Part shown: piece by piece, positions 14,395 to 41,368 of the stretch | Position numbering within the stretch: position 1 is the stretch's first letter | How the letters are laid out: every line of letters starts with the position of its first letter | From: Bacteroidales bacterium | GTDB lineage: Bacteria; Bacteroidota; Bacteroidia; Bacteroidales; JAIPAP01 | Reading direction: 5' to 3' | Assembly (NCBI GenBank): GCA_021740045.1 | Contig: JAIPAP010000010.1 | Location: forward strand, 1 to 48,965 | Length of the DNA: 48,965 bases | Made by a program: the position numbers and the translations under genes | Notes under the pieces: model-generated | What the model was told of the DNA's origin: nothing | Database searches by the model: none | The model's input: only the letters and a program-made list of their open reading frames with translations

Positions 14395-17232
14395 ATGCCC
14401 AAAGACTCATTGGATGCATTAGATCCTAAAAAATTCATCATTATTAATGGTGCGAAAGTAAATAATTTGCAGAATATTTCGTTAGCCATTCCCAAAAATA
14501 AATTTGTTGTCATTACCGGTTTATCAGGGTCCGGTAAATCATCCCTGGCTTTTGACACTCTTTATGCCGATGGACAGCGTCGATACGTGGAAAGTTTGAG
14601 TTCATACGCCAGGCAGTTTTTGGGTCGCATGAGTAAACCCGAGGTTGATTATATAAAAGGTATAGCCCCTGCTATTGCAATTGAACAAAAAGTAAATACC
14701 CGAAATCCCAGGTCTACTGTAGGTACCTCAACAGAAATTTACGAATACCTTAAGCTGTTTTTTTCCCGTATTGGTAAAACCTATTCTCCCAAATCAGGAA
14801 AAGAGGTTAAACGTCACAATGTTAGCGATGTGGTTGATTTTTTCTATTCGCTGCCCGAAGGGGCTAAAGTTATGATCATTAGCCCATTGATCAAGGAAAA
14901 AGATCGCTCCCTGCTTGATCATTTAAAAATTCTGATGCAACAAGGATTTGCCCGTATTGCAGTGCAGGAACAAGTCCACCGCATCGAAGATATGTTAAAC
15001 AACGGGGCACTTAGCACTTTCAATTCCGATGACCTCGATGTGGTTATTGACAGGCTAACAGTTAAACATTATGATGAAGACCTAAGGACCCGCTTGGCCG
15101 ATTCGGTTCAAATAGGTTTTTATGAAGGTGATGGAGAATGCATCGTTGAGTATTTAAACAAGGATAAAGCTCCCATCCGAAAAAGCTTTTCAAACAAATT
15201 TGACCTGGATGGGATAACCTTTGAAGAACCTACTCCCAATCTCTTTAGTTTTAACAATCCTTTTGGTGCTTGCAAAAAATGTGAAGGCTTTGGAAGTATT
15301 ATCGGTATTGATGAAGACCTGGTAATCCCAAACAAGAGCCTATCGATATACGAAGATGCCATAGCATGCTGGCGTGGCGAAAAAATGAGCGAGTGGAAAG
15401 ATCAACTGGTCATGAATGCCTATAAATTTGATTTTCCCATTCATAAACCCATCTATGAGCTCACCCCGGAGCAAAAGAAACTACTATGGACCGGTAACCG
15501 CTATTTTAATGGTTTGGATGACTTTTTCAGATACGTCGAAAGCAAATCCTATAAGATACAATACCGGGTAATGCTATCACGCTACCGTGGAAAAACCGTT
15601 TGTCCCGACTGCCAGGGAACCAGGCTAAGAAAAGATGCCAATTATGTTAAAGTAGGCGGAAAATCCATTACTGACTTGGTTTTATTGCCCATTAAAGAAG
15701 TTATACCCTTTTTCAATAACCTTCAACTCAACCGTCACGATTTGGCCATAGCTACCCGCTTATTGGTAGAAATTAAAAACAGGTTGAGCTACCTGAGCGA
15801 TGTTGGTTTGGGTTATCTAACCCTAAACCGGTTATCGTCCAGTCTCTCCGGGGGAGAATCGCAACGGATCAACCTGGCGACTTCATTGGGAAGCAACCTG
15901 GTGGGTTCCATGTACATCCTCGATGAACCGAGCATAGGGTTGCATCCGCGCGATACGCACAGGCTGATTAAGGTATTGAAACAACTAAAGAACCTGGGAA
16001 ATACCGTTATTGTGGTTGAGCATGATGAGGAGATCATTAAAGCTGCTGACGAGATCATCGACATGGGTCCACTCGCCGGTAATCATGGTGGCAAGATCAT
16101 TTTCCAGGGTAATTATCAACAGCTTCTTGATGATAAGGAGAGCTTAACTGCACAATACATGAACCGGGAAAAGGCTATCGACCTGCCTGATGAACGAAGA
16201 AGATGGAAAGAATACATAGAGGTTAAGGGCGCCCGGGAACATAACCTGAAAAACCTTCAGGTAAAAATTCCATTAAATGTACTTACAGTGATTAGTGGGG
16301 TGAGTGGCTCGGGAAAAACCACCTTGATCAAGCATATTTTTTATCGTGCCCTTAAAAAGCACTATGGAGGATACAGCGATAAAACCGGTGATTTCGATCG
16401 CCTGGATGGAGATATGAACAGCATTGCCGGGGTGGAATTAGTAGACCAAAACCCCATTGGGCGTTCATCCCGCTCAAATCCGGCCACCTATGTAAAAGCC
16501 TACGATGAAATACGCGCTTTGTTTGCCGATCAGGCATTGGCTAAAATGCGTGGATACAAGCCGGGATTCTTTTCCTTCAATACCGAAGGGGGAAGGTGTG
16601 ATGAGTGCGAAGGCGAAGGAGTTGTTAAGATAGAAATGCAGTTCATGGCCGACATTGAACTCACTTGTGAAGAATGTAATGGATCCCGCTTTAAGAATGA
16701 AGTGCTTGAAATCAAATACAAGGAAAAGTCCATAGCCGATGTATTGGATATGACGGTTAATGAAGCTATAGATTTTTTCAAAAGTGGGAAGGAAAAAGAC
16801 AGGTCTACTGTCGAAAAACGTATTATCGGTAAGTTGCAGCCTCTTGTCGATGTGGGACTGGGTTATGTAAAATTGGGACAATCATCAAGCACCCTTAGTG
16901 GAGGCGAGGCTCAGCGCATTAAACTGGCCTTTTTTCTCTCAAAAGGATATTCGCACACCCCTACCCTTTTCATATTTGATGAACCCACAACAGGTCTTCA
17001 TTTTCATGATATCAATAAATTACTAAAATCATTGCGGGCTTTGATTGAAAACGGTCATTCCATCCTGATTATCGAACATAACATGGAAATAATTAAAAGC
17101 GCCGATTGGGTGATCGATTTAGGGCCCGAAGGCGGTGAAAAAGGAGGTCATATTATTTGTGAGGGCACCCCGGAGGATGTGGTAAAGGTAAAAAGCTCAT
17201 ACACAGCCGGTTTTCTGTCAGAAAAGGTATAA
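14395..17232 (+). CDS. uvrA: Excinuclease ABC subunit A
   Basis: A 945-residue ABC-type ATPase that finds bulky DNA damage and loads UvrB in nucleotide excision repair. It has two ATPase modules: Walker A GLSGSGKSSLAF near residue 45 and GVSGSGKTTLI near residue 635, with signature sequences SLSGGESQRI and TLSGGEAQRI and two Walker B/DEP motifs. Zn-binding CxxC pairs are visible (CKKCEGFG, CPDCQGTR, CDECEGEG, CEECNG). Length is normal for the family. It stands alone, divergent from the sigma gene and convergent with the nickel SOD gene, sharing the terminator at 17231-17263. Confidence 0.98.
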   Translation: MPKDSLDALDPKKFIIINGAKVNNLQNISLAIPKNKFVVITGLSGSGKSSLAFDTLYADGQRRYVESLSSYARQFLGRMSKPEVDYIKGIAPAIAIEQKVNTRNPRSTVGTSTEIYEYLKLFFSRIGKTYSPKSGKEVKRHNVSDVVDFFYSLPEGAKVMIISPLIKEKDRSLLDHLKILMQQGFARIAVQEQVHRIEDMLNNGALSTFNSDDLDVVIDRLTVKHYDEDLRTRLADSVQIGFYEGDGECIVEYLNKDKAPIRKSFSNKFDLDGITFEEPTPNLFSFNNPFGACKKCEGFGSIIGIDEDLVIPNKSLSIYEDAIACWRGEKMSEWKDQLVMNAYKFDFPIHKPIYELTPEQKKLLWTGNRYFNGLDDFFRYVESKSYKIQYRVMLSRYRGKTVCPDCQGTRLRKDANYVKVGGKSITDLVLLPIKEVIPFFNNLQLNRHDLAIATRLLVEIKNRLSYLSDVGLGYLTLNRLSSSLSGGESQRINLATSLGSNLVGSMYILDEPSIGLHPRDTHRLIKVLKQLKNLGNTVIVVEHDEEIIKAADEIIDMGPLAGNHGGKIIFQGNYQQLLDDKESLTAQYMNREKAIDLPDERRRWKEYIEVKGAREHNLKNLQVKIPLNVLTVISGVSGSGKTTLIKHIFYRALKKHYGGYSDKTGDFDRLDGDMNSIAGVELVDQNPIGRSSRSNPATYVKAYDEIRALFADQALAKMRGYKPGFFSFNTEGGRCDECEGEGVVKIEMQFMADIELTCEECNGSRFKNEVLEIKYKEKSIADVLDMTVNEAIDFFKSGKEKDRSTVEKRIIGKLQPLVDVGLGYVKLGQSSSTLSGGEAQRIKLAFFLSKGYSHTPTLFIFDEPTTGLHFHDINKLLKSLRALIENGHSILIIEHNMEIIKSADWVIDLGPEGGEKGGHIICEGTPEDVVKVKSSYTAGFLSEKV

Positions 17233-17263
17233 AAAAACGCGGCTCAGGCGGCCACGTTTTTTT
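17231..17263 (+). terminator. Bidirectional terminator between uvrA and sodN
   Basis: The stem pairs AACG-GGC with GCC-CGTT around one C/A mismatch, with seven A residues before it and seven T residues after it. It therefore works for uvrA on the plus strand and for the convergent SOD gene on the minus strand. Confidence 0.75.
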
Positions 17264-17278
17264 GTTGAAGCATTCCTT

Positions 17279-17812
17279 TTAGTCTTGCATGTGTTTACCT
17301 TCTTCATCATGGCGGTGTGCATCGGGGCCAAAATAGGCTTTTTCAAATTTACCCAATGTTTCCCTTAATTTTTCGATGTACTTTAAATCAGTTGTTTGTT
17401 TGGCTTTCATGGCATATACCAGTAATTTATGGGAGTATTCCAGCTGTTTTAAATAGCGGTTGTACTCCTCTTCATTGGAGGGTTCTTTAATCTTAATCCG
17501 TTGATGCTGGAAATATTGGGTAACAATGTCCTGGAATTTCTTTGCATGATCCTCCTTATTCATTACCCACCTGACCAATTGGTTATAGTTCTTGTCTCCT
17601 TCTGCCGAAAGCTCAGTGATTTGATTCATCGACTTTTCCATGGTTTTGATATGCTCATAAAGCATATCGATACGCATTTCATCTCCGTAAATACCGCATG
17701 GAATTTCGCAATGTGCATCAGCCTTGGGCTGAAAACCCATGATCAAAAATAATGTCATCAGCAATCCACCAAGTCCTGTTTTCCAATTTCTTCTCAATCC
17801 ATTGTGTTTCAT
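17279..17812 (-). CDS. sodN: Nickel superoxide dismutase with an export signal
   Basis: A 177-residue protein. After a hydrophobic signal segment (about residues 12-27) and an ADA cleavage site comes HCEIPCGIY, the nickel-hook motif of Ni-SOD. Cleavage after Ala33 would make His34 the new N-terminus, giving mature His1, Cys2, Cys6 and Tyr9, exactly the Ni ligands and gate residue known from Streptomyces enzymes. The remainder is a long-helix bundle, as in the family. The mature part is about 144 residues, longer than the roughly 117-residue actinobacterial form, with a His-rich C-terminal tail. A twin Arg (RRNWK) precedes the hydrophobic stretch, so Tat export is possible. No sodX-like maturation peptidase is adjacent. 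A GGAGG ribosome-binding site precedes the ATG. Confidence 0.88.
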   Translation of the reverse strand: MKHNGLRRNWKTGLGGLLMTLFLIMGFQPKADAHCEIPCGIYGDEMRIDMLYEHIKTMEKSMNQITELSAEGDKNYNQLVRWVMNKEDHAKKFQDIVTQYFQHQRIKIKEPSNEEEYNRYLKQLEYSHKLLVYAMKAKQTTDLKYIEKLRETLGKFEKAYFGPDAHRHDEEGKHMQD

Positions 17813-17908
17813 TTTCTCAACCTCCGATGTTTTTTATTTTTTTATTTCATAGGTTTAACAATGCTTGGAATCTTATGTTCAATAGAGCCATTCAAGCGGG
17901 TATGGACA

Positions 17909-17944
17909 CAAAAAAAATCATCCGCCGGCAAAGCGACGGATGAT
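17909..17944 (-). terminator. Terminator after the glycine betaine operon
   Basis: An 11-bp stem with one mismatch (ATCATCCGCCG / CGACGGATGAT). On the minus strand it is followed by a run of seven or more T residues. It lies 25 bases after the substrate-binding-protein stop codon. Confidence 0.8.
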
Positions 17945-17969
17945 CGTAAAATGGTGGTTCAAATAAGTG

Positions 17970-21373: not shown

Positions 21374-22558
21374 TTAGAAATAATAGCCAATATTAATATT
21401 GAAACGTGTATTCCAATCGGGATCTTCAACACCGGTACCCAAGCCTTTACCAAAGGTTTCGGTTAACCATGGCTGGTTTTTACCCATAGCATAGTCGATA
21501 TAGGTATAAATGCTACCTGCAGTAACCAGCATACCGGGAATAAGGTGCTGAGTATCGTAAAAGTCCTCATTGGCCTTGTCGATCATTGTGTAATCAACAT
21601 AGGGCTGAATGCTTGAGATTGGGCCCCATTCAACCGGAATTGAATAAGCTAAGCCAACAGCATAAATGCTAGCTTCTTTCGCTACCGGGTAGTTAAATCC
21701 ATAGGCACCCATTTGCACCATCTCGATATCATCACCGGCATCGTTTTTAGCATTGTAGTTGTAATTGATGTAAGAAGCTTTCAGATTGAAGCCACCACCG
21801 AAATTACCAACTACGTGACCGGCAAAAGCGGTTCCCATTTCAGCTTCGTCGAGCACACTGTTGTAAATGCCGCCCAATTGTGCTGAAACACCTACTTCCC
21901 AACTATCACTAATGTTATAAGCATAGCGGGCGTTAAATTGGTTTAGCTCGCGAATTGAGGCCGTAGTGTCACCAAATACGCCACCGGGCGTAATATCATA
22001 GGAGTAACGACCTGCACCTGCATTACCAAAAGTTACATCACCTCCGTAAACCGGGCCTTCCGGCTCTGCCTGACGGAAGTATGACAGTGAAAGCTTTGAA
22101 TTTTCGCCTGTGATATCAAAATTGATACCCATGTCATAATCATCTTCCAGACCAACATAGTACTGCCCCTGGAACCACCATGAGTGCGAAGCATATGTTG
22201 TAATACCGAAGGGTACCTGGGTAGCACCTAACTCCATATACACATTATCGGAAAAGGCATAACCCAAATATCCATGATGGATAAAATGAGTACCAAATGT
22301 GGGGTAAAAACGATATTCAAAACTCAGGTCAACATTGGCTACTGAACCATCAACGTTCAAACGCCATGTATCCCATGTAAACTGTGGATTTAAATTACTG
22401 GCACCACCTTCATAGTTGGTTGCTATAACATTATAACGTACGGCACCACCAACTTTAAATCCATCGTCTTGTGCTACTGACTTTTTTGGCAGCAAGCTAC
22501 CCATAAAAATCACGCTCAACATAACTAACACTACTCTCCAAATGTTTAAATTTTTCAT
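21374..22558 (-). CDS. Outer-membrane beta-barrel porin-like protein
   Basis: A 394-residue exported protein. The signal peptide (about residues 1-29, ending SVAQ) is followed by repeated amphipathic strands rich in aromatic and glycine residues (FEYRFYPTFG, VGLAYSIPVEWG), and the protein ends in NINIGYYF with a C-terminal Phe. These are hallmarks of an outer-membrane barrel. It resembles substrate-selective porins of the OprP/OprO type only in a general way. It lies upstream of the glycine betaine ABC operon on the same strand, suggesting it lets betaine or related solutes cross the outer membrane. A strong promoter about 260 bases upstream implies a long leader. Confidence 0.75.
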   Translation of the reverse strand: MKNLNIWRVVLVMLSVIFMGSLLPKKSVAQDDGFKVGGAVRYNVIATNYEGGASNLNPQFTWDTWRLNVDGSVANVDLSFEYRFYPTFGTHFIHHGYLGYAFSDNVYMELGATQVPFGITTYASHSWWFQGQYYVGLEDDYDMGINFDITGENSKLSLSYFRQAEPEGPVYGGDVTFGNAGAGRYSYDITPGGVFGDTTASIRELNQFNARYAYNISDSWEVGVSAQLGGIYNSVLDEAEMGTAFAGHVVGNFGGGFNLKASYINYNYNAKNDAGDDIEMVQMGAYGFNYPVAKEASIYAVGLAYSIPVEWGPISSIQPYVDYTMIDKANEDFYDTQHLIPGMLVTAGSIYTYIDYAMGKNQPWLTETFGKGLGTGVEDPDWNTRFNINIGYYF

Positions 22559-24157: not shown

Positions 24158-24946
24158 TTATCCATGCATATTCTCCTTACAAAAACGCTCCAATTGCTCC
24201 AGCATTGGAACAACCAGCAAATGTCCGTTCATTGTTTCGGCAATTGAACGAAGGTAGCCCCTTTTATGAATGCGGGCAAATGCCAGGGCAAAATTTATAT
24301 CGTAAACCCATGATATTTGCAGTACCTTAAAATCACTAAGTGTTTGTATGCTATACAGATCAACCATCTTTTTGTTTAAAATGGCATTGGAAACGTTTTC
24401 GGATATACGATTGTCATTAGACAGGTTCAACTCAAGTGTGGAGTTTGACTGATCGGATTGATAATGCGCGATTACTACCTTAAATATATCCAACTTATCG
24501 GCATCTCTTAGCAGCCTGGCAAAAAATAAGGATTTGCCGGTTAAGTTCTCATCGATCCTGGCTTTATTATGATTGGCAATGGCTTGGTAAACCATTTCCC
24601 GATGAGAAGTTGAAAGCTTTGCAAGCAAATCATTTTCCCTGATCACCGTTAGACCAAGCTCGGCATGATCGATTGATTGTTTATCGGAAAAGGTCTTGTA
24701 TTCATAAAACTGCCGGAATCTTCCCACATCATGCAATAAGGCCATTATTTCGGCGAGATTAACATCATAATCGGTTAGGTATAATTCATCCGACAATTCC
24801 CGTATTTCATTAAGTACCCGTAGCGAATGATTGATCTTCATTCTAATCATTTCCGGTTCGTCGACCAGATCACAAAATGATTCGGCATAATCGACAAACC
24901 ATTTTCGCAAACCAATAAAAAAATCTTTTTTAGTGTCCTTTTCCAA
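24158..24946 (-). CDS. HD-domain phosphohydrolase-like protein
   Basis: A 262-residue protein with an HD metal-binding domain: an upstream His in INHSLRVLNEI, the paired LLHDVGRF (His-Asp), a later His in ANHNK, and Asp in RDADKLDIF. Such proteins hydrolyse nucleotides or other phosphate esters; the substrate is unknown. It has no signal peptide, so it acts in the cytosol. The start overlaps the VanZ-like gene by 17 bases, and the kinase gene follows 11 bases downstream, so all are probably cotranscribed. Confidence 0.82.
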   Translation of the reverse strand: MEKDTKKDFFIGLRKWFVDYAESFCDLVDEPEMIRMKINHSLRVLNEIRELSDELYLTDYDVNLAEIMALLHDVGRFRQFYEYKTFSDKQSIDHAELGLTVIRENDLLAKLSTSHREMVYQAIANHNKARIDENLTGKSLFFARLLRDADKLDIFKVVIAHYQSDQSNSTLELNLSNDNRISENVSNAILNKKMVDLYSIQTLSDFKVLQISWVYDINFALAFARIHKRGYLRSIAETMNGHLLVVPMLEQLERFCKENMHG

Positions 24947-25367
24947 AACGATTAAAAATATTTTCGAATGTTCTATACTTAATCAACAACAAAGCAGTAA
25001 AGTACCCCAATATCACGCCCAGACTATTATAAATAAAATCGACGATGTTGTAAGAGCGCCCGGGAATAATGCTTTGGTGCAACTCTTCCACATATGAAAA
25101 AGCAATCAGCAACAGGGTATAAATAATGCCCGTTTTAAACCTGATCCTTTCCAAGCCACTTTTCCACAGGATCACCAGCATGGATAGGATCAGGTACATT
25201 ATAATATGGGCAAGATAATCGAGGCGGATGCTAAACAGCCGTTTTGTTTTTTCCTCATCGGGCGATAAATCGGGATAGGATGACAAAATAACGATCAATG
25301 CCAGCCATATCCAGAATAAAACCTTATAGGTATGATGATCGAGTAATGCTTTCAGTATCCGCTTCAT
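24930..25367 (-). CDS. VanZ-like membrane protein
   Basis: A 145-residue protein with four predicted membrane helices and the VanZ-family patterns LDYLAHIIMYLILS and FSYVEELHQSIIPGRSYNIVDFIYNSLG. VanZ was named from teicoplanin resistance, but most members have no known function. It starts 6 bases after the S9 peptidase stop and overlaps the HD gene by 17 bases. Its basic C-terminus should be cytosolic. Confidence 0.85.
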   Translation of the reverse strand: MKRILKALLDHHTYKVLFWIWLALIVILSSYPDLSPDEEKTKRLFSIRLDYLAHIIMYLILSMLVILWKSGLERIRFKTGIIYTLLLIAFSYVEELHQSIIPGRSYNIVDFIYNSLGVILGYFTALLLIKYRTFENIFNRFGKGH

Positions 25368-25373
25368 ACATTT

Positions 25374-27398
25374 TTATTTTAGCCATTTGTCGAGCCATCC
25401 GAAAAATTCGCGTTGCCATAGTACAGCATTCTGAGGCTGTAACACAAAATGTGATTCATCAGGGAAAAACAGGAACTTGCTTGGGATATCCTGCAGTTGT
25501 GCTGCATGAAATGCCTGCATGCTCTCGGTGTAGGGAATGCGAAAATCGTTTCCGCCGCTAATGATCAAAATAGGCGTGTCCCACTTCTCAACAGCCAGGT
25601 GCGGTGAGTATTTATAGCTTTCGGGGCGCGGGTCTTCCCAGAAAGGTCCTCCCAGGTCATGGTTGGGGAACCAGTATTCTTCCGTTGAGCCGTACCAGCT
25701 CTCGAAATTGTACATCCCGCAATGAGAGATGAAAGCGCTGAAACGCCCCTCATGATGGCCGGCCAGGTAAAACACCGAAAAGCCGCCATAACTTGCTCCT
25801 ACAGCGCCCAGACGATTTTCATCCACAAAAGCTTCTTTAGCCACCGCGTCGATAGCCGAAAAATAATCCTTGATGTTCTGTCCACCATAATCCTCGCTGA
25901 TCTGTGCATTCCATTCCTGTCCAAAGGTGGGAAGCCCCCTCCTGTTGGGCGCAACTATAATATAATCATTCGCTGCCATGATCTGGAAATTCCAGCGATA
26001 AGAAAAAAACTGGCTTACAGCGCTCTGCGGACCACCCTGACAATAAAGCAAGGCCGGGTAAGTTTTATCCGGGTCGAAATTGGGGGGATAGATCACCCAA
26101 GTAAGCATCTCCTTACCGTCGGTGGTTTCTATCCAGCGTTCTTCGACATTTCCCATGGTAATACCATCCAATACCGGTTTATTGGTAAAAGTTAACTGCT
26201 CCTCATTGCCTTTTTTATCCACATGGAAAATTTCGGTTGGCAGCGACATCGACATTTTTGTCCCGATAAGTCCATCATCAGCCAAAACAAACGACTGGTA
26301 ATTATGATGGCCTTTAGTAATCCGGTTGATCTTTTCTTTTTTAAGGTCGATGGAAAATAACTGATAAGTGGCATTGATACCGCTTATAAAATAGATTTCA
26401 TCACCTCTCGGCCCCCATACATAATGGGAAGCATTATAGTTAAAATCTTTAGTCAGATTGGTGGTTTCCCCTGTGGCAAAGTCGTAAAGGATCATACGCT
26501 CTTTATCGGCCTCATATCCCGGTGTTTCCATACTCATCCATACCATCCGGCTTCCATCAGGCGAAAATACAGGGTCCATATCATATCCGTCGAAACCTTC
26601 ATTGCTGAGGTTTTCGGTTGTTTTGGCTTCAGTATCATACAGGTAAATTTCCGTGTTGGTACTTACTGAATAATCTTTTCCGGTGAGTTTTTTACAGGTA
26701 TAAGCAATTTTCTTTCCATCGGGGCTCCAGGCGATCTTTTCCGTGCCGCCCCATGGCTGTGTGGGTGAATCATAGGGTTCTCCTTTCATAATGTCGGCAA
26801 GCTCATACATTTTACCATCTTCATAACCGGCTACAAAAATGTGGCTGTAGCGGTAATCATGCCATTCATCCCAGTGGCGGTACATCAAGTCATCGATGAT
26901 GCGTACGTTGGTCTGGGGCAGGTCGGGATAAACTTCCTGCGGGGTTTTATCCAGCTTTACATTTTTGGTAACCAATATTTTATCCATGGTTGGCGCATAT
27001 TTAAAGCCGGTGATCCCACCCTCGATGTGGGTTATTTGCTGCTTATCAGTCCCGTTGGGATTCATTTCCCATAACTGCACCGACCCGCTTTCGCCGGAAA
27101 GAAAACCAATGCGTTTGCCATCGGGACGAAAACGGCCATTGAATTCCGAACCGCCAAAGCTGGTTACCTTTACGGCTTCCTTATCCTCAAGGCTCATGAT
27201 ATAAAGATCGCGCTGACCGCTATTGGCTTCAAGGTTATAGGTTGATACACCATATAATATGGTGCTTTTATCAGGGGATATTTGCAAATCTCCTACCCTG
27301 CCCATTTTCCACATTTTTTCCGGAGTTAATCGTCCTTGGGCAAATAGTTGAGACGTCACAAACAATAATAAAAACGAAAGAATAACACGTGATTTCAT
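25374..27398 (-). CDS. Secreted S9-family prolyl oligopeptidase-like peptidase
   Basis: A 674-residue exported serine peptidase. A signal peptide (residues 1-20, ending LFAQ) precedes a WD40-like beta-propeller (about 25-400, with repeated SPDG motifs) and an alpha/beta-hydrolase domain. The catalytic residues fit Ser536 (GASYGGFS), Asp618 (GGNDFRIP) and His650 (DESHFVL). The family cleaves short peptides, often as dipeptidyl or acylaminoacyl peptidases; specificity is not visible here. It is the first gene of a four-gene minus-strand run that continues into the VanZ-like gene. It is divergent from the universal stress gene at 27501. Confidence 0.93.
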   Translation of the reverse strand: MKSRVILSFLLLFVTSQLFAQGRLTPEKMWKMGRVGDLQISPDKSTILYGVSTYNLEANSGQRDLYIMSLEDKEAVKVTSFGGSEFNGRFRPDGKRIGFLSGESGSVQLWEMNPNGTDKQQITHIEGGITGFKYAPTMDKILVTKNVKLDKTPQEVYPDLPQTNVRIIDDLMYRHWDEWHDYRYSHIFVAGYEDGKMYELADIMKGEPYDSPTQPWGGTEKIAWSPDGKKIAYTCKKLTGKDYSVSTNTEIYLYDTEAKTTENLSNEGFDGYDMDPVFSPDGSRMVWMSMETPGYEADKERMILYDFATGETTNLTKDFNYNASHYVWGPRGDEIYFISGINATYQLFSIDLKKEKINRITKGHHNYQSFVLADDGLIGTKMSMSLPTEIFHVDKKGNEEQLTFTNKPVLDGITMGNVEERWIETTDGKEMLTWVIYPPNFDPDKTYPALLYCQGGPQSAVSQFFSYRWNFQIMAANDYIIVAPNRRGLPTFGQEWNAQISEDYGGQNIKDYFSAIDAVAKEAFVDENRLGAVGASYGGFSVFYLAGHHEGRFSAFISHCGMYNFESWYGSTEEYWFPNHDLGGPFWEDPRPESYKYSPHLAVEKWDTPILIISGGNDFRIPYTESMQAFHAAQLQDIPSKFLFFPDESHFVLQPQNAVLWQREFFGWLDKWLK

Positions 27399-28538: not shown

Positions 28539-29831
28539 ATGAAATCAATCATTTACTTTACAGTAGCCTTATTATTTACCATTAACAGCCTTGCACAAAT
28601 TCCGGAAAGCAGGCATCATACGTTAGAAACAGTAAACTCCGTTACCATTCTTGATGGAAACGGGCCTGTAATTACAAGTAATTCAGGGATTAATAACCTA
28701 GAAAAATTATGTCCCCATTTGAAATCAACTGCTGAGTCAGAGCCTGCATGGGACAGCATTTTCCGCGAAAAAAGAGATTCGGCTAATACCCAGTGGCTTA
28801 CTTATCAAAAAGAACTATTTGCTTATAATGAGCAAGGGAGTATGACCAAGGATATTGCATACAACTGGGATGAAAATGAACAGGGATGGTATTCAGCTTC
28901 TAAGTATGAATACACCTACGATATAAATGGAAATCAAAAAAGTAAAACCCTTTCGTTTTCTGAAAATGGTATAGGCAACTGGCTACCACATAGCAAATAT
29001 GAATATTATTATACTGACAAAGGACTTGAAGATTACCAATTATATTCCGAATGGAATGCCGAAACTGGTGAATGGGAGCTGCATAGAAAAAGTGATAATA
29101 TATATAACGCGAATGATCAACCAATCATCAACCTCCAATATTTCGAGGATGAAGATAGCGGCGAATGGATCAACATAGCTAAAAACGAATACTTTTATCA
29201 TGACGAGTGGAACAAAACGGGAATCTTTTATTCTCGTGAATCGGAAGGCGACCAATGGGAAGCAGAAATAAAAACTGACGTCATTTATAATTCCGATTTC
29301 AATGTAAAGGTAGTAGATAATTACTTTTGGGATGTTTCGATAAATGATTGGGACCCTATGTTCAGAATTGAATACGATTACAATGAGAACGGTGATCAAA
29401 CATTATTTAAACATCTCTCCTGGAACGATACAGCAAATGCATGGTACAACGACAGCAAAATTGTTTATACTTATGATAGCACCAGAAGAACCTTTGAGCA
29501 CAGCTATGATTGGGATATTAGCAATGAAGAATGGATTCTCGTGAGGAGAGGCTCCTACCACTACCTGAGTCCACCCCACGGATTTGAAGAAGTCGCCAAC
29601 AATACGTTAAGGCTCTACCCGAATCCGGCCAATGATTACGTTAGCATTGATGCTGAAGATTGGCGGCAAGCTACTGTTGAGCTATACAATATTGAAGGAA
29701 AGTTGGTGTTGCAGCAAGATATCCAACCACATAACAAGATACCGATTCATCATCTAAAGCGGGGTGTGTATCTTTATAAGATCATTGGTAATGACACTAT
29801 TGGCAGTGGGAAAATGATGATTGAACGGTAA
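28539..29831 (+). CDS. Secreted T9SS cargo protein with YD/WD-type aromatic repeats
   Basis: A 430-residue exported protein. The signal peptide (residues 1-19, ending SLAQ) is followed by about eight irregular repeats rich in Tyr, Trp, Asp and Asn (EYTYDINGNQ, EYDYNENGDQ, KNEYFYHDEW). These recall the YD/RHS strand pattern but are not full RHS repeats. The last 80 residues are a type A T9SS sorting domain: LRLYPNPANDYVSI, then LYNIEGKLV, then GVYLYKI, ending in a basic residue. The protein should therefore cross the outer membrane and be anchored or released. The function of the repeat region is unknown. It is monocistronic. Confidence 0.85.
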   Translation: MKSIIYFTVALLFTINSLAQIPESRHHTLETVNSVTILDGNGPVITSNSGINNLEKLCPHLKSTAESEPAWDSIFREKRDSANTQWLTYQKELFAYNEQGSMTKDIAYNWDENEQGWYSASKYEYTYDINGNQKSKTLSFSENGIGNWLPHSKYEYYYTDKGLEDYQLYSEWNAETGEWELHRKSDNIYNANDQPIINLQYFEDEDSGEWINIAKNEYFYHDEWNKTGIFYSRESEGDQWEAEIKTDVIYNSDFNVKVVDNYFWDVSINDWDPMFRIEYDYNENGDQTLFKHLSWNDTANAWYNDSKIVYTYDSTRRTFEHSYDWDISNEEWILVRRGSYHYLSPPHGFEEVANNTLRLYPNPANDYVSIDAEDWRQATVELYNIEGKLVLQQDIQPHNKIPIHHLKRGVYLYKIIGNDTIGSGKMMIER

Positions 29832-33944: not shown

Positions 33945-35903
33945 TTATTCAACTTCTTTGGCCGCTTTGGGAAGGGTGAAACTAAACCGGCTTCCCTTTC
34001 CCAATTCGCTTTCAACAGATAAGGTTCCGTTTTGCTTTTCTACAAAATCCTTACAAATGACCAGTCCCAGGCCGGTACCCTTTTCATCATGGGTACCCTT
34101 TTGGGAAATGCCCTTCTCCGTGTTAAACAAATTATCTATTGTTTCCTGGCTCATTCCGGTACCCGTATCAAGAACCGACACCTCAATCATTTCATTCTTT
34201 TCATAAGCTTGAATGCTTACCCTTCCATTTTCATCGGTAAATTTAATGGCATTGGCAATAAGATTCCTCAGGATAGTGGATGTAAGGTTGAAATCGGCAT
34301 ATGCCACCAACCCCTCGGGTATCGCTGAGGTAAGGTTTATCTTTTTTTCACGGCTACTACTCATCAGGAGATCGAAATTATCATTGTAAACCTGTTGAAT
34401 ATCGATATTCTCAGGAGAAAAACTTACAGTTCCTGTTTCGGAGCGCGCCCACTGCATCAGGTTATCCAATAGCCTGAGGGTTTCATTTGACGATTTATGA
34501 AGCTTGTGGGTAATATCGAGCAACTCTTCCCGGTCGAAATCATCAAACTCATCGATGATCAATTCGGTATAGGAATTAATAACACTTACCGGATTTTTAA
34601 GGTCATGGGCAATAATGCGAAACAAGGTATCCTTGGTTGTATTAAGTTCCTGGAGTTCTTCATTCTTTCGGGCAATTTCGGTATTCTTTGCTTTCAGTTT
34701 TTTATTACGCTTGTTTTTGAGGTTATTATTGCGGTATAAAAGAAATGCCAGAACAAGAAGCACAACTACACCGGCAATTACAGCCGTTAATTGGTAGTTT
34801 CGTTTTGTGATAATCAAGTCCTGCAAGCGGTTTTCATTCAGGAGGGCTTCATTTTCCGATTGCTGACGCTTTAACCGCAGATAATTGATCTGGTTTTCAC
34901 GTTTCTCATTAAAAACACTGTCGCTGTATACTTTATGCAAACGGTGATATTCATAGGCTCTTTTCCAGTTATCCATACCGGCAAAGCTTTTGGCCAGGAT
35001 GCCTGTGACATTTTGCAGGTCCCATTTCGCGCCTACTTCGCGGGCCAAATCATAACTTTTCAGGCCATATTCAATACTTTTTTCAAGAATGCCCATTTCA
35101 TGATAAACTTCAGCCAAGCCGGCCATGGCATAACTAAGCTCCCATTTATTCTCATAGTCCGGTGCGTTGATTACCTGTCGATAGGCATCAAGGGCCTTTT
35201 GATACTGTTTCTTTTCAAGATAGATCCTGCCCAGCAGGTTTTGAATGCGCAAGCTGGCATTGTGCCGGCCGAGTTGTCTTTCAAGTGTTAATGCTCGTTT
35301 AGCGTAATACAAGGCGCTGTCATAATGTTGCAATGCTTCATAGGAAATGCCCAGGTTGAAATAGTTAGTTGCCAGGAGCTGTGTATCTTTTACCTGTTTG
35401 CAGATTTCGGCAGATTGTATATGATTGTTGATTGACTGCTGATAATGTTCCTGCATATTCTGGATAAGACCAATATTATTCAATCCTACGGCGATACCTC
35501 GCTTATTATCGGTATCCTCCCACATATGCAGCGCTTTTATAAAATTCTCCAAGGCAAAGTCATATTCTCCCATCACATATTTAACCCCTCCAATACCGCT
35601 GATGCTTTGGGCCATTTTGTTACGGTAGTTGTTTTGTTCAGCCAGATCATAAGCCTCTCTTAGATATTGTTCTGATGAATCGGGGTACGAAAATTTCATC
35701 TCGTCACCGATCATAATGAGAAGCTCGATCTTCTTAATGGTGGAGGTGTCATTTTTAATGGCGTTCAATTCCCGGATAAGTGAATCTTGCTTAGATTGAG
35801 CTGAAAGCCTGGGAACCAACACGATAAAAAAAAGCAGGAGTGAAATCTCATGCATTCTCAAAACTACCGACCTATTAACTTTTCTTCTGCTGCTGCTTCT
35901 CAT
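33945..35903 (-). CDS. TPR-containing membrane sensor histidine kinase
   Basis: A 652-residue kinase. A signal-like N-terminus (to about residue 36, ending LSAQ) precedes about seven TPR repeats in the periplasm (residues about 60-330), a membrane helix at about 371-390, a coiled-coil linker, a HisKA domain with His433 (FRIIAHDLKNP), and an HATPase domain (N-box NLIANAIKFTDENG, G-boxes DTGTGMSQ and GTGLGLVICK). The TPR-TM-kinase layout is common in Bacteroidota; the periplasmic part probably senses a protein partner. No response regulator is adjacent. The ATG at 35903 gives a long basic n-region; an internal Met at 35855 is an alternative. Confidence 0.92.
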   Translation of the reverse strand: MRSSSRRKVNRSVVLRMHEISLLLFFIVLVPRLSAQSKQDSLIRELNAIKNDTSTIKKIELLIMIGDEMKFSYPDSSEQYLREAYDLAEQNNYRNKMAQSISGIGGVKYVMGEYDFALENFIKALHMWEDTDNKRGIAVGLNNIGLIQNMQEHYQQSINNHIQSAEICKQVKDTQLLATNYFNLGISYEALQHYDSALYYAKRALTLERQLGRHNASLRIQNLLGRIYLEKKQYQKALDAYRQVINAPDYENKWELSYAMAGLAEVYHEMGILEKSIEYGLKSYDLAREVGAKWDLQNVTGILAKSFAGMDNWKRAYEYHRLHKVYSDSVFNEKRENQINYLRLKRQQSENEALLNENRLQDLIITKRNYQLTAVIAGVVVLLVLAFLLYRNNNLKNKRNKKLKAKNTEIARKNEELQELNTTKDTLFRIIAHDLKNPVSVINSYTELIIDEFDDFDREELLDITHKLHKSSNETLRLLDNLMQWARSETGTVSFSPENIDIQQVYNDNFDLLMSSSREKKINLTSAIPEGLVAYADFNLTSTILRNLIANAIKFTDENGRVSIQAYEKNEMIEVSVLDTGTGMSQETIDNLFNTEKGISQKGTHDEKGTGLGLVICKDFVEKQNGTLSVESELGKGSRFSFTLPKAAKEVE

Positions 35904-36048: not shown

Positions 36049-37104
36049 TTATTTAAAATAAATCTGTACGCCACCGTTTTTGCTTTCTATAATCATTGTT
36101 GACGGTGAGCCGCCTTTACCGATGGTGCCCTTATAGGAATCCTCGGTAAATGATTCTTCGGTTACGGTTATGTTGCTATCATCTTTCGGATAATCGAGCG
36201 ACCCCATTTTGATCTCGGCATCCAGCTGAATGTAGGCGCCTTTTTCAAGACCAATATTCAGCTCGGCGTAAGCATTATCCAATTCGCAGCGCTTAAAGCC
36301 TTTATCAATCTGTTTGATCTCGATCTCACCATATTTAAGTTCGGCCACGACTTCACTCTTAACCCGGTGAATTGTTACTTCGGAAAAAGAAGCCTCCAAG
36401 TCGATGACATCCACTTCTTCCAGGTCGAACTCTTCATAACCGGCGTCGAGCTTAAGTATATCAAGTTTACCCAATTCCCATTCCGAGAATTTGGTATCAA
36501 TCTCCAGTTCTTTGCTTTCTTCTACTGAAATTTCGGAATACTTAGTATCGAATTGTCCGCCTGCAATAAAGTCGATTTCAGCACTTCCAAAAGAGATCTC
36601 TATATAGTTTTTGGTATGATTCAACATACCTGCATCAAGTGCGCCGTATGCCAAATCAATGTCAACCCGGCCATCCTGCTTGTCCAGGAAAATGTCGCCG
36701 AATTTGTTTTCCAGCTCCACCGACATACTCTTTGGAAGCTTCACCATATAGTCGATACTGAATTCATGATCACCATTGTCATCGAACTTGAGATGCGTTT
36801 CGGCTTCAACCAGGTTTTCATCGGCGCTGAATTCCACATCCACCTTTTCAAAAAAGCGTTCGGCCTTGCGTTCGGAAGCATTTTCGATGGAAAAGGTCAC
36901 TTCAATATATACCTTATTTTGATTCCAGTTTTCACAATGGATCTTACCGAATTTGTTTTCTACCTTGAGCAAGGCATTTTTGTTGACATCAAACTCCTTT
37001 TCAACGGTGCGTTTGAAATCTTCCTGGGCAAAAGCAGCTGATGTGAGAAATGCAAGCAGCATTAACGGAAGCAGCTGTCGAAATTTAAACATGGTATGTT
37101 TCAT
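36049..37104 (-). CDS. Exported beta-rich protein, DUF4097-like
   Basis: A 351-residue exported protein. The signal peptide ends in AAFAQ; a second Met at residue 5 is an alternative start. The mature part is a series of short, regularly spaced strands with alternating acidic and hydrophobic residues (KVENKFGKIHCENW, VELENKFGDIFLD, VVAELKYGEIEIKQ), the repetitive solenoid seen in DUF4097-type putative adhesins. The function is unknown. It is the last gene of an operon with an ECF sigma factor and a membrane anti-sigma-like protein, overlapping the latter by 20 bases. It may be an output or signal-receiving component of that system. Confidence 0.72.
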   Translation of the reverse strand: MKHTMFKFRQLLPLMLLAFLTSAAFAQEDFKRTVEKEFDVNKNALLKVENKFGKIHCENWNQNKVYIEVTFSIENASERKAERFFEKVDVEFSADENLVEAETHLKFDDNGDHEFSIDYMVKLPKSMSVELENKFGDIFLDKQDGRVDIDLAYGALDAGMLNHTKNYIEISFGSAEIDFIAGGQFDTKYSEISVEESKELEIDTKFSEWELGKLDILKLDAGYEEFDLEEVDVIDLEASFSEVTIHRVKSEVVAELKYGEIEIKQIDKGFKRCELDNAYAELNIGLEKGAYIQLDAEIKMGSLDYPKDDSNITVTEESFTEDSYKGTIGKGGSPSTMIIESKNGGVQIYFK

Positions 37105-38488: not shown

Positions 38489-41368
38489 TTATTGACTAAC
38501 CACCATCTTGCGCGTGATAGTCGTTTGCGGGGTTTTTAACTGATAGAAATAAACACCGTTGTTCAACTTCTTACCATCTACAATCACTTTGTGTTTTCCG
38601 GCAGTATAGTTGCCTTTAGCCAATTTCATCACCAGCTTACCGGAAAGGTCATAAACGCTAAGTTCTACATTGGTTTCTTTACCCAGAGTGAACTCAATGC
38701 TTGCCTGATCGGTAAACGGATTGGGGTAGCATTGCTCAAGATGCGTACTTCTGATGCCTGTTCTTTCTTTTATAGCGGTGTTTTCATCATGAACCACACA
38801 GGCCTTAATACAATAATTACCGGTATGTTGGTAACCTGAGGGATCATCATAGTTATAAAAGTCCTTCCATTCGCCGCCTTCCATGTAAAAGCTTTCGTCT
38901 TCCGAGGCAGTTGACTCGACCAGTGTGCGATAATCGGCACCCAGCAAAACAGGAACCTCCGAGGTGCGATCATAAGGGTGACCGCCTTGTGAGAGGGTTA
39001 GCTTCACATAAAAATTATCTCCTTCGGGAATGTTGATGCTGTCTTGCAGACTAAAGGTGTGCAGGCCAGTATATTCGGCAGTACCACTTACACTTGCCAG
39101 CGGGTTTTGAAGTTCACCGGCAACAAAATCATCATAGATCACCGCTTCATAATCCACATCATCAACTGCCGTATAGAAGTTAACCGCAATGATCTTTTCA
39201 TCCTCGGTGGCCGTAAATGCATTGAACACCGATTCCACCTCAGTGTGGGTATCGCGCCAACCGTGGTAATCATGATAGTACATAGTGTCAAATTGCATTC
39301 TTTCCACATCCTGGAAGGAGATGGCACCCATTTCGGGATGGTGACCGCAGTGTTTGTCATAGTAGGATATCCAGAAATAACCATCCTGCCCCCAACCGGC
39401 GCCCCAGCTATTCTTGATCAACCATGCCCCGGGCTCGGGAGCTTGTGTTAACTTGTTGTCATCCCATCCAACAATCGCCACTGCATGATTGGGATCCATT
39501 GAATTCGATGGGGGTTGATAGTGTACATAGCCATCCATAAACTGATTGTTGCTCGCCAGGCACGTGCCCATCACACCGTATTCCATTACTTTTTCCTTGA
39601 TGAGGTTGATGCGTTCCAGCTCTTCGCCTACAGTGTACCATTCAATGTGGCGTGGATAGTAATAATGATAATCATCGGCGCTCCTTTCCGGGGGATCGTT
39701 GTATGACTGTCCGTCGATGTCGCGAACGGCGCCCTCTCCCCTGCTCAGGTAGGCCGAAGTAACACGGTAATCGCCACCGTAATGAACTTCCAACCCATTT
39801 CCGGTAGGTGGATCGAGGTCTTGATTAAAATGCTGGTTAAAGCCGTTCCACCAGTCCAGGTGATATTCGGCCAGGTTGGGTTCGCCTTCTTCGCCGTTAG
39901 CCGCCCATTCGCCGGTCATTAACAAATTACCTTCCATTGCTGCCATAGCGCCGTGTGTCCAGCAGGTTCCGCCTTGCTGGCTTTTTACGGAGGTCACATA
40001 ATTTTCACCGTTATAATTCCGAAGATCGAAATACGACATTTCGTCTTCCTCGGTGGTGAGCACTTTTACACAGAAATTTCCTGTATTTTGAAAACCGGAA
40101 GGATCGTCATACTCATAAAAATCGAGCCACTCCTCATCCACTTTATAATAGCTTTCACCGGGATTGGCTGAGGACTCAACAATGGTGCGGTAATCGGCAC
40201 CTAAAAGAACGGGTACATCGGATGTGCGGTCATAGGGATGACCTCCCCGGTTGAAAAAGAGGTAAACATAGAAATCTTCACCTTCCTCAAGCAACACAGG
40301 GGCTTCCAGTTCCACGGTATGCAGCCCCGCTTCATCAAAATTACCCGAGGTGGATGAAAGCACATTGGAAAGTGTTCCGTTTTCAAAATCATCATAGATC
40401 TTTATAAAATACATGGTATTTTCTTCGGCTGTAAAGAAGTTGACCGCCCTGAGCATTTCACGGGCTTCCATTTCAAAGGCATTGAATACTTCGTAAACAC
40501 CTTCCAGGGTATCGCGCCAGCCATGATAATCGTGATAATAAATATTATCATACATCTGCCGTTCAACCTCCTGAAAGCTTACAGCTCCCATTTGCGGATG
40601 CTTACAGGCCCATTTGTCGTAATAGGAAATCCAAAAGTAGCCGTCGTTTCCCCAATCATCGCCCCAGCTGTTTTTCACCAGCCAGGCCCCGGGTTCCGGG
40701 GCTTGCGTTTCACGGCTATCATCCCAACCAATAATGGAGATGGCATGGTTAGGCAACTGAGTGCTACTTGGCGGTTGATAATGTTCATACTGCCAGTTGA
40801 TAAAGGAGCCGCTGTAACACATACAGGTTCCCATCACGCCGTATTCCATGATCTTTTCCTTGATCTTGTCGATGCCGTTAAGTTCCTGATCCATGGAATA
40901 CCATTCCACATGTCGGGGATAGTAATAATGGTAACTGGTATCGAAGCGCTCGGGAGGATCGTTGTATGACTGTCCGTCGATATCGCGAACAGCCCCTTCT
41001 CCCCTGCTCAGGTACGCGGTGGTGACCATATAATCGCCTCCCATATGGACTTCCAGGCCATTGCCTGTGGGCGGATCGAGGTCTTCGTTAAAAAACTGGT
41101 TAAAACCGTTCCACCAGTCCAGGTGATACTCGGCCAGGTTAGGCTCGCCGGTTTCGCCGTTAGCGGCCCATTCGCCTGTCATCATCAGGTTACCTTCCAT
41201 GGCGGCCATAGCGCCATGCGTCCAGCATGTTCCGCCTTGCTGGTTCTTGACCGAAGTAACATAATTCTCGCCGTTGTAATCGCGTAAATCAAAGGTTTCC
41301 GGAGGATCCTGGGCATAGGTATAACTGGCCAGGATCATTGCCATTAAGAGTAATGTTAGTTTTCTCAT
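38489..41368 (-). CDS. Secreted C1-family cysteine peptidase, tandem double unit, with T9SS sorting domain
   Basis: A 959-residue exported protein. After the signal peptide (1-19) come two near-copies, offset by exactly 421 residues, each with a papain-type catalytic domain and a C-terminal beta domain of the lectin-like type. Catalytic Cys48 and Cys469 sit in GGTCWTHG; each unit also has the His motif (PNHAISI and PNHAVAI) and the Asn motif (VKNSWG and IKNSWG), so both active sites look intact. The last about 80 residues are a T9SS type A sorting domain ([34 protein letters not shown]). It should be displayed or released as an outer peptidase. Family length is normally a single unit of about 450-500 residues. 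Confidence 0.93.
38768..40030 (-). repeat. Second copy of the 1263-bp intragenic tandem repeat
   Basis: Encodes residues about 447-867 of the C1 peptidase. It aligns without change of frame to the copy at 40031-41293 with a constant 1263-base offset, and long stretches are nearly identical at the DNA level (for example around 39715-39750 and 40978-41013). Edges are approximate. Confidence 0.8.
40031..41293 (-). repeat. First copy of the 1263-bp intragenic tandem repeat
   Basis: Encodes residues about 26-446 of the C1 peptidase, including the first active site. The unit begins at [15 protein letters not shown]; the second unit begins [15 protein letters not shown]. Confidence 0.8.

Follow-up and report, generated by a model that had tools for sequence, protein, structure and literature searches.

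The window, by which we mean the whole 48,965-nt stretch of Bacteroidales DNA analysed here, carries on its minus strand a gene for a nickel superoxide dismutase (Ni-SOD) precursor. The 177-aa open reading frame (17279..17812) begins with MKHNGLRRNWKTGLGGLLMTLFLIMGFQPKADA, followed directly by HCEIPCGIY; the translation after MKHNGLRRNWKTGLGGLLMTLFLIMGFQPKADA reads HCEIPCGIYGDEM... A ribosome-binding site, GGAGGT, read off the sequence, stands 7 nt 5' of the ATG (plus-strand 17820..17825, minus-strand feature). Two terminator-like hairpins, both minus-strand and recognised by consensus match only, flank the gene: one 3' of it, before a convergent uvrA-like gene (17231..17263), and one after the upstream glycine-betaine transporter genes (17916..17945), the immediate upstream neighbour being OpuAC-type. 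Because the second hairpin follows the transporter genes, Ni-SOD is probably a single-gene unit between the two. A sigma-70 promoter scan found no match, and Rfam gave none at gathering score within the window.

Profile and motif evidence place the protein in the Ni-SOD family. The initial annotation had described a Ni-SOD with a hydrophobic leader, ADA before HCEIPCGIY and an RRNWK stretch, and all of these are confirmed by the reading frame and by a Pfam Sod_Ni match (PF09055, E=1e-29, 104.1 bits against a cut-off of 25, residues 30-161), the sole such match in its 3.9-Mb, 97%-complete genome. The protein scores 39.7 bits on the NCBIfam model of classical sodN (TIGR02753), below the cut-off of 90 that the classical proteins L121 (152.1) and L122 (155.7) exceed. 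Against the PDB, single-sequence phmmer with the window protein found no Ni-SOD, and a family profile found 1q0d weakly (E 0.087).

The nickel hook is conserved throughout a broad set of relatives. HCEIPCGIY (mature residues 1-9; 17687..17713, minus strand) satisfies the Ni-SOD pattern H1-C2-x-x-P5-C6-G7-x-Y9. For comparison we used 107 exported-type relatives, a set from which duplicates had been removed (125 to 110) and which leaves out the classical proteins L121, L122 and L130, the fragment L027, and rows with X or outside 111-169 aa; some of its rows extend past a contig end. H1, C2, P5, C6 and G7 occur in 107/107, the first four being part of the regular expression that collected the set. 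Tyr62 is likewise present in 107/107, position 9 holds Tyr (104) or Phe (3), and position 3 holds Glu (103) or Gln (4).

Structure prediction agrees with this assignment. AlphaFold2 models the mature domain (144 aa; 17282..17713, minus strand) as four helices with a pLDDT of 87.9. The first five mature residues, within the hook, fall below 50, as expected for a metal site modelled without its metal. In a Foldseek search of the PDB, Ni-SOD entries fill 16 of the first 17 rows (target-normalised TM 0.74-0.78, all at E 0.025 or worse), and no match reached E 0.001 or better. Identity to solved Ni-SODs is 12-16%, and the VIA-align Z of 12.9 for Ni-SOD is barely above the 12.5 for FliS chaperones. 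The best solved matches of the predicted fold are thus Ni-SODs, a weak indication when the fold is taken by itself; because of the FliS scores it is the profile and the hook that decide.

The leader reads as a signal peptide ending exactly at the hook. Residues 1-33 (17714..17812, minus strand) form a predicted signal peptide cut after Ala33, as judged from the hydrophobic core, the ADA/H junction, a crude caller and the junction of relatives. By eye it has a basic n-region, a hydrophobic core (residues 13-27; 17732..17776, minus strand; 10-residue Kyte-Doolittle maximum 2.5), Ala at -3 and -1, and no lipobox. The crude caller cuts it precisely before HC, giving a predicted mature N-terminal peptide of HCEIPCGIYGDEMR. 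Applied to 90 Ni-SODs, it cuts exactly before HC in 68, at another site in 19 and at no site in 3. Among the 107 relatives, which come from many phyla, His-Cys is preceded by Ala (86), Ser (16), Pro (2), Val (2) or Gly (1). An A/S-HC junction thus recurs in 102/107 although the leaders themselves are unconserved, which points to more than chance.

We consider it quite probable that this Ni-SOD is made as a Sec precursor and becomes an envelope SOD without SodX. The unfolded chain would cross the inner membrane via Sec. General signal peptidase I would then cut after Ala33 and free the alpha-amine of His34, the mature His1. The hook H1-C2-E-I-P-C6 would bind nickel in the periplasm, and the assembled enzyme would remove superoxide in the envelope. 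Comparison with relatives speaks for the family, a likely fold, a conserved junction, the lack of a neighbouring sodX-like gene and the status of sole SOD seen with an export signal in its genome; from these we infer the cleavage, Sec over Tat, extracytosolic nickel loading, the oligomer and the activity. The earlier proposal that a cut after Ala33 would expose His1, Cys2 and Cys6 outside the cytosol is accordingly strengthened by the recurrent junction, by the absence of sodX-like genes from all 122 loci described below and by the predicted fold.

The same precursor could be exported and cut in this way and still not be an SOD, serving instead as a secreted protein of the same fold that binds nickel or copper. 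The low identity to solved Ni-SODs fits such a role, as do changes at the positions of Glu17 and Arg47, which we take to be second-shell residues of the Streptomyces enzyme. These two are changed in the exported relatives and likewise in classical L122 and L130; around Streptomyces Lys64 the alignment is gapped and the position is not trusted. A binder would also suit the His-bearing C-terminal tail GPDAHRHDEEGKHMQD (17282..17329, minus strand), delimited by the relatives' His content and low pLDDT: His makes up 18% of the last 14 residues of the 107 relatives against 4.7% of the core, and nickel or copper capture by such tails is possible. N-terminal-His metal binders of other folds do exist and were found by signal-strapping, according to passages of PMC12537917. 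A mere binder, however, would have no need of the Ni(Cys)2 hook, with both Cys, P5, G7, Tyr62 and nearly always Tyr9 kept, and we regard this reading as quite unlikely. In 62/107 relatives the C-terminus ends in His. The tail is not unusually long: the initial annotation had described a longer C-terminus, but the mature length of 144 aa lies within the family range of 123-147 (median 133).

A direct junction between leader and hook is usual, not universal. In three Bacteroidota relatives a pro-segment separates HC from the likely signal-peptide cut: L071:5866-6402 (ATA/STST), L092:597-1169 (IQA/QMDI) and L100:1080-1637 (LQA/QLSY). These relatives account for 3 of the 19 proteins that the crude caller cuts elsewhere. 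With 24, 25 and 27 residues respectively left before HC, the pro-segment would outlast the signal peptidase cut, so that His1 would not be exposed by signal peptidase alone; this implies that either a second protease acts or the free His1 is lost. All three are nested within the exported clade, L071 and L092 as sisters (99/82) and L100 elsewhere. A heavy-metal P-type ATPase adjoins both sister genes (L071:3451-5616 and L092:1383-3575), scoring 570 and 565 bits on TIGR01525, with the copper and cadmium subfamily models over cut-off too.

These proteins lend some substance to the idea that cleavage of the window leader falls at another place (after Ala31, say, leaving Asp-Ala before His), or that this leader is kept as a membrane anchor, so that the enzyme is inactive or needs trimming. 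We judge that very unlikely in view of the A/S-HC junction of nearly all relatives. Pro at -3 disfavours a signal peptidase cleavage site, and it makes the Ala31 site a poor one.

Release of His1 by signal peptidase I could also follow Tat export, with the same mature enzyme folded and nickel-loaded in the cytosol before translocation and cleavage. An Arg7-Arg8 pair (17789..17794, minus strand) precedes the hydrophobic core, and TatC is present in the genome itself and in 29 of 30 tested. The pair makes a poor Tat motif, though. The window's LRRNWK lacks S/T and the hydrophobic pair, the pattern [ST]RRx plus two hydrophobic residues fits 0/107 relatives, and L028-L031, the top matches of the genome_contigs scan, have no RR in their leaders. 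Since the hook needs a free amine, nickel loading before cleavage would moreover be chemically doubtful. TatC adjoins Ni-SOD in only one (G488, locus L167) of 22 Ni-SOD genomes. On the 0/107 fit we rejected Tat as a family trait. The initial annotation had left Tat export possible, and for the window protein alone that stands, as an unlikely route beside Sec.

Exported-form loci lack the processing gene that accompanies classical Ni-SODs. We found no sodX-like gene at the window's own locus or around any of 122 exported-form loci, 104 of which have at least 1 kb on both sides, while one adjoins two of the three classical loci on which this contrast rests. The neighbour in Novosphingobium (W01/L122) scores 44.0 bits on TIGR02754 and that of G830/L130, about 135 bp downstream, 54.3 bits, each matching nearly the whole profile in one stretch. 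The curated cut-off of 63.25 is missed even by these two true sodX neighbours; it is too strict, so that finding none over cut-off proves little by itself. Used as queries, the two peptidases match each other at E 6e-10 and nothing in the 122 exported loci better than E ~1. The third classical locus, Nonomuraea L121, has no sodX-like gene in its 5.4 kb (none within 2.5 kb). Against signal peptidase I the L122 peptidase scores 31 bits, below cut-off. Signal peptidase is related to SodX and makes a cut of the same type; SodX would therefore not be needed, and a dedicated processing enzyme seems not to be required for the window Ni-SOD.

A sodX-like peptidase elsewhere in the genome might instead process the protein in the cytosol, as in Streptomyces. 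Ala at -1 would fit, since Ala precedes His in three classical leaders too (Nonomuraea L121 VSA/H, Novosphingobium L122 AQA/H, G830/L130 AKA/H), and L121 shows that sodX need not lie within a few kb. The initial annotation had proposed a genome-wide look for sodX. At E up to 1, TIGR02754 gave a single match in the window's own genome, covering 30 positions of a 505-aa frame. Classical leaders are also less hydrophobic, with 10-residue maxima of 1.4 (L121), 1.2 (L122) and 0.8 (L130) against an exported median of 2.8. Processing by a remote SodX is scarcely credible on this evidence. As classical leaders end likewise, AxA or Ala before His is not diagnostic alone; a stronger hydrophobic core and a missing sodX are better signs.

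Whole-genome searches gave the same picture as the loci. TIGR02754 exceeded its cut-off in 0/60 genomes with the exported form, most of which had only partial matches, as in 11/14 control genomes. Near-whole weak matches away from Ni-SOD occurred in G797 (19.6 bits, positions 2-87), G609 (23.1 bits, positions 4-80) and G791. The G791 match (38.4 bits), at a locus not overlapping L102, was set aside as a signal-peptidase-like frame beside a radical-SAM-like frame, by eye. Of 395 genomes in the phylum of G790, 20 carry a Ni-SOD. The leader is hydrophilic in one of them, where a sodX-like gene lies next to the Ni-SOD; in the other 19 it is hydrophobic and no such gene adjoins. In a tree of 111 rows, 4 classical and 107 exported proteins fall apart into two groups with support 100/100.

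The predicted cut departs from the Q-rule of Bacteroidetes. Of the signal peptidase I substrates predicted in this group, 71% on average have Gln as their first mature residue, and this Gln is cyclised to pyroglutamate, as reported in passages of PMC5837995. Ni-SOD has His at +1, and seven other window precursors read A/S then Gln at +1. Five were called by script (21374-22558, 25374-27398, 28539-29831, 36049-37104 and 38489-41368) and two by eye (33945-35903, missed by the crude caller, and 41994-44789, cut one residue early by it); the seven leave out two probable membrane proteins (137-2137 and 24930-25367, for which the caller gives no Gln) and three lipoprotein-like proteins with Cys. Of the seven, 38489-41368 encodes a papain-family protease whose C-terminus bears a Por secretion-system sorting domain. 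Among 193 signal-peptide-like neighbours of related loci, the crude caller puts Gln at +1 in 67 and His in 2. Because a pyroglutamate end could not supply the nickel-binding amine, there seems to be a functional reason for His at +1 in departure from the Q-rule, and Ni-SOD would offer a clean test of why that rule has exceptions.

Of the SODs found in its genome, Ni-SOD alone carries an export signal, suggesting that it acts in the envelope. The same genome encodes two Fe/Mn-SODs of 211 and 192 aa, both without leaders, and gave no CuZn-SOD match. CuZn-SOD occurs in just one of 66 genomes tested (G593, loci L006 and L160), which also has an exported Ni-SOD; as it is nearly absent from all 66, exclusion cannot show that Ni-SOD replaces it in the order. 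In bacteria that lack CuZn-SOD, the exported enzyme would point to a superoxide defence located in the envelope. A search for a conserved operon partner (nickel transporter, peptidase or chaperone) found none, the best gene family reaching 8/93 neighbourhoods in a count that used crude ORF calling, some genomes twice and some short flanks. The initial annotation had also looked to nickel transport genes. For the NicO permease, the one transporter this result covers, 0/22 Ni-SOD genomes had a match over cut-off against 1/44 others.

Exported Ni-SODs are a widespread but little studied group, a well-populated variant and no rarity. The enzyme had been described as uncommon in its lineage, which holds in part: Ni-SOD occurs in 3/395 genomes of a phylum sample and exceeds the cut-off in 20/393 of the order, its own genome included in both. 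A scan of genome_contigs, however, confirmed 533 related stretches, and the lineage does not count as a rare carrier. Record titles of the best 80 of these, the ones retained, name Bacteroidota, Ignavibacteria, Calditrichota, Krumholzibacteriota, Latescibacterota, Zixibacteria, Poribacteria, Neomarinimicrobiota, Omnitrophica and one Syntrophobacteria record. The exported form also occurs in Ilyobacter polytropus (Fusobacteriota), and no relative was found in phages. Matches to PF09055 below cut-off in G473, G575, G663 and G729 were treated as chance and dropped; L023, a frame opened among such matches, was a methyltransferase-like ORF by eye. A second Ni-SOD fragment at a contig edge (G521:C52:6-194, L027) has the hook HCDIPCGVY and a short leader, MKKLFRTHTAEA; it apparently belongs to another Ni-SOD subfamily and possibly to a contaminating contig.

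Taken jointly, these observations allow a broader reading, to which we give a little less than an even chance. Exported Ni-SOD would be a self-sufficient second form of the enzyme. It would act as envelope SOD in many bacteria, among them Bacteroidota, Ignavibacteriota, Calditrichota, Zixibacteria and Desulfobacterota-type ones, and this in an order that mostly lacks CuZn-SOD. Housekeeping signal peptidase would replace SodX, and nickel would be taken outside the cytosol, so that no nickel importer would be needed. In Bacteroidota, selection would have kept the enzyme exempt from the Q-rule, since pyroglutamate would destroy the site, and the pro-segment sub-form would add a second maturation step.

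One close known counterpart is the Streptomyces-type sodN/SodX system. The two share the fold, the hook HCxxPCGxY and Ala just before His1. Classical sodN has a less hydrophobic leader, sodX adjoining in 2/3 loci and Asp at position 3, whereas the window form has a hydrophobic leader, lacks a sodX-like gene across 122 loci, forms a separate clade and has Glu at position 3 (103/107).

A metal-binding N-terminal His is familiar from other proteins. The histidine-brace proteins LPMO and CopC differ from Ni-SOD in binding copper, in having other folds and in lacking Cys ligands. The likeness is that signal-peptide removal creates the metal-binding N-terminal His of LPMO and that CopC too has an N-terminal His, as passages of PMC12537917 describe. 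The same passages bring in Ni-SOD itself: the signal peptide of the Roseiconus lacunae enzyme (WP_230780104.1), which directly precedes His as in the window protein, served as a signal-strapping query and retrieved 'many Ni-superoxide dismutases' (PMC12537917). What these passages say of Ni-SOD includes nothing on maturation, sodX absence, phyla or the Q-rule. Since signal-peptide Ni-SODs are already in print, the window enzyme is a variant and not a new kind. The Ilyobacter polytropus protein WP_013389192.1, annotated superoxide dismutase [Ni] and encoded on a 962-kb plasmid, has the same exported form (LFA/HCEVPCGIY, 50% identity); its product name gives the enzyme, not the route. Among the open-access papers listed in full-text searches we recognised no account of Ni-SOD maturation by signal peptidase I or of the departure from the Q-rule, a scope that takes in few subscription papers such as the early surveys of Ni-SOD diversity.

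Algae offer a parallel of another kind, in ubiquitin-NiSOD fusions described in passages of PMC6332867. By our own reading of these, the nickel-site end could likewise be released there by a protease of general cellular function; the fusions differ in being eukaryotic and in having ubiquitin in place of a signal peptide. In cyanobacteria, a missing sodX has been taken to indicate that Ni-SOD may not work, as passages of PMC8346466 put it. In the exported clade it is normal for sodX to be missing from the neighbourhood, and the leader would offer an alternative way to the same N-terminus.
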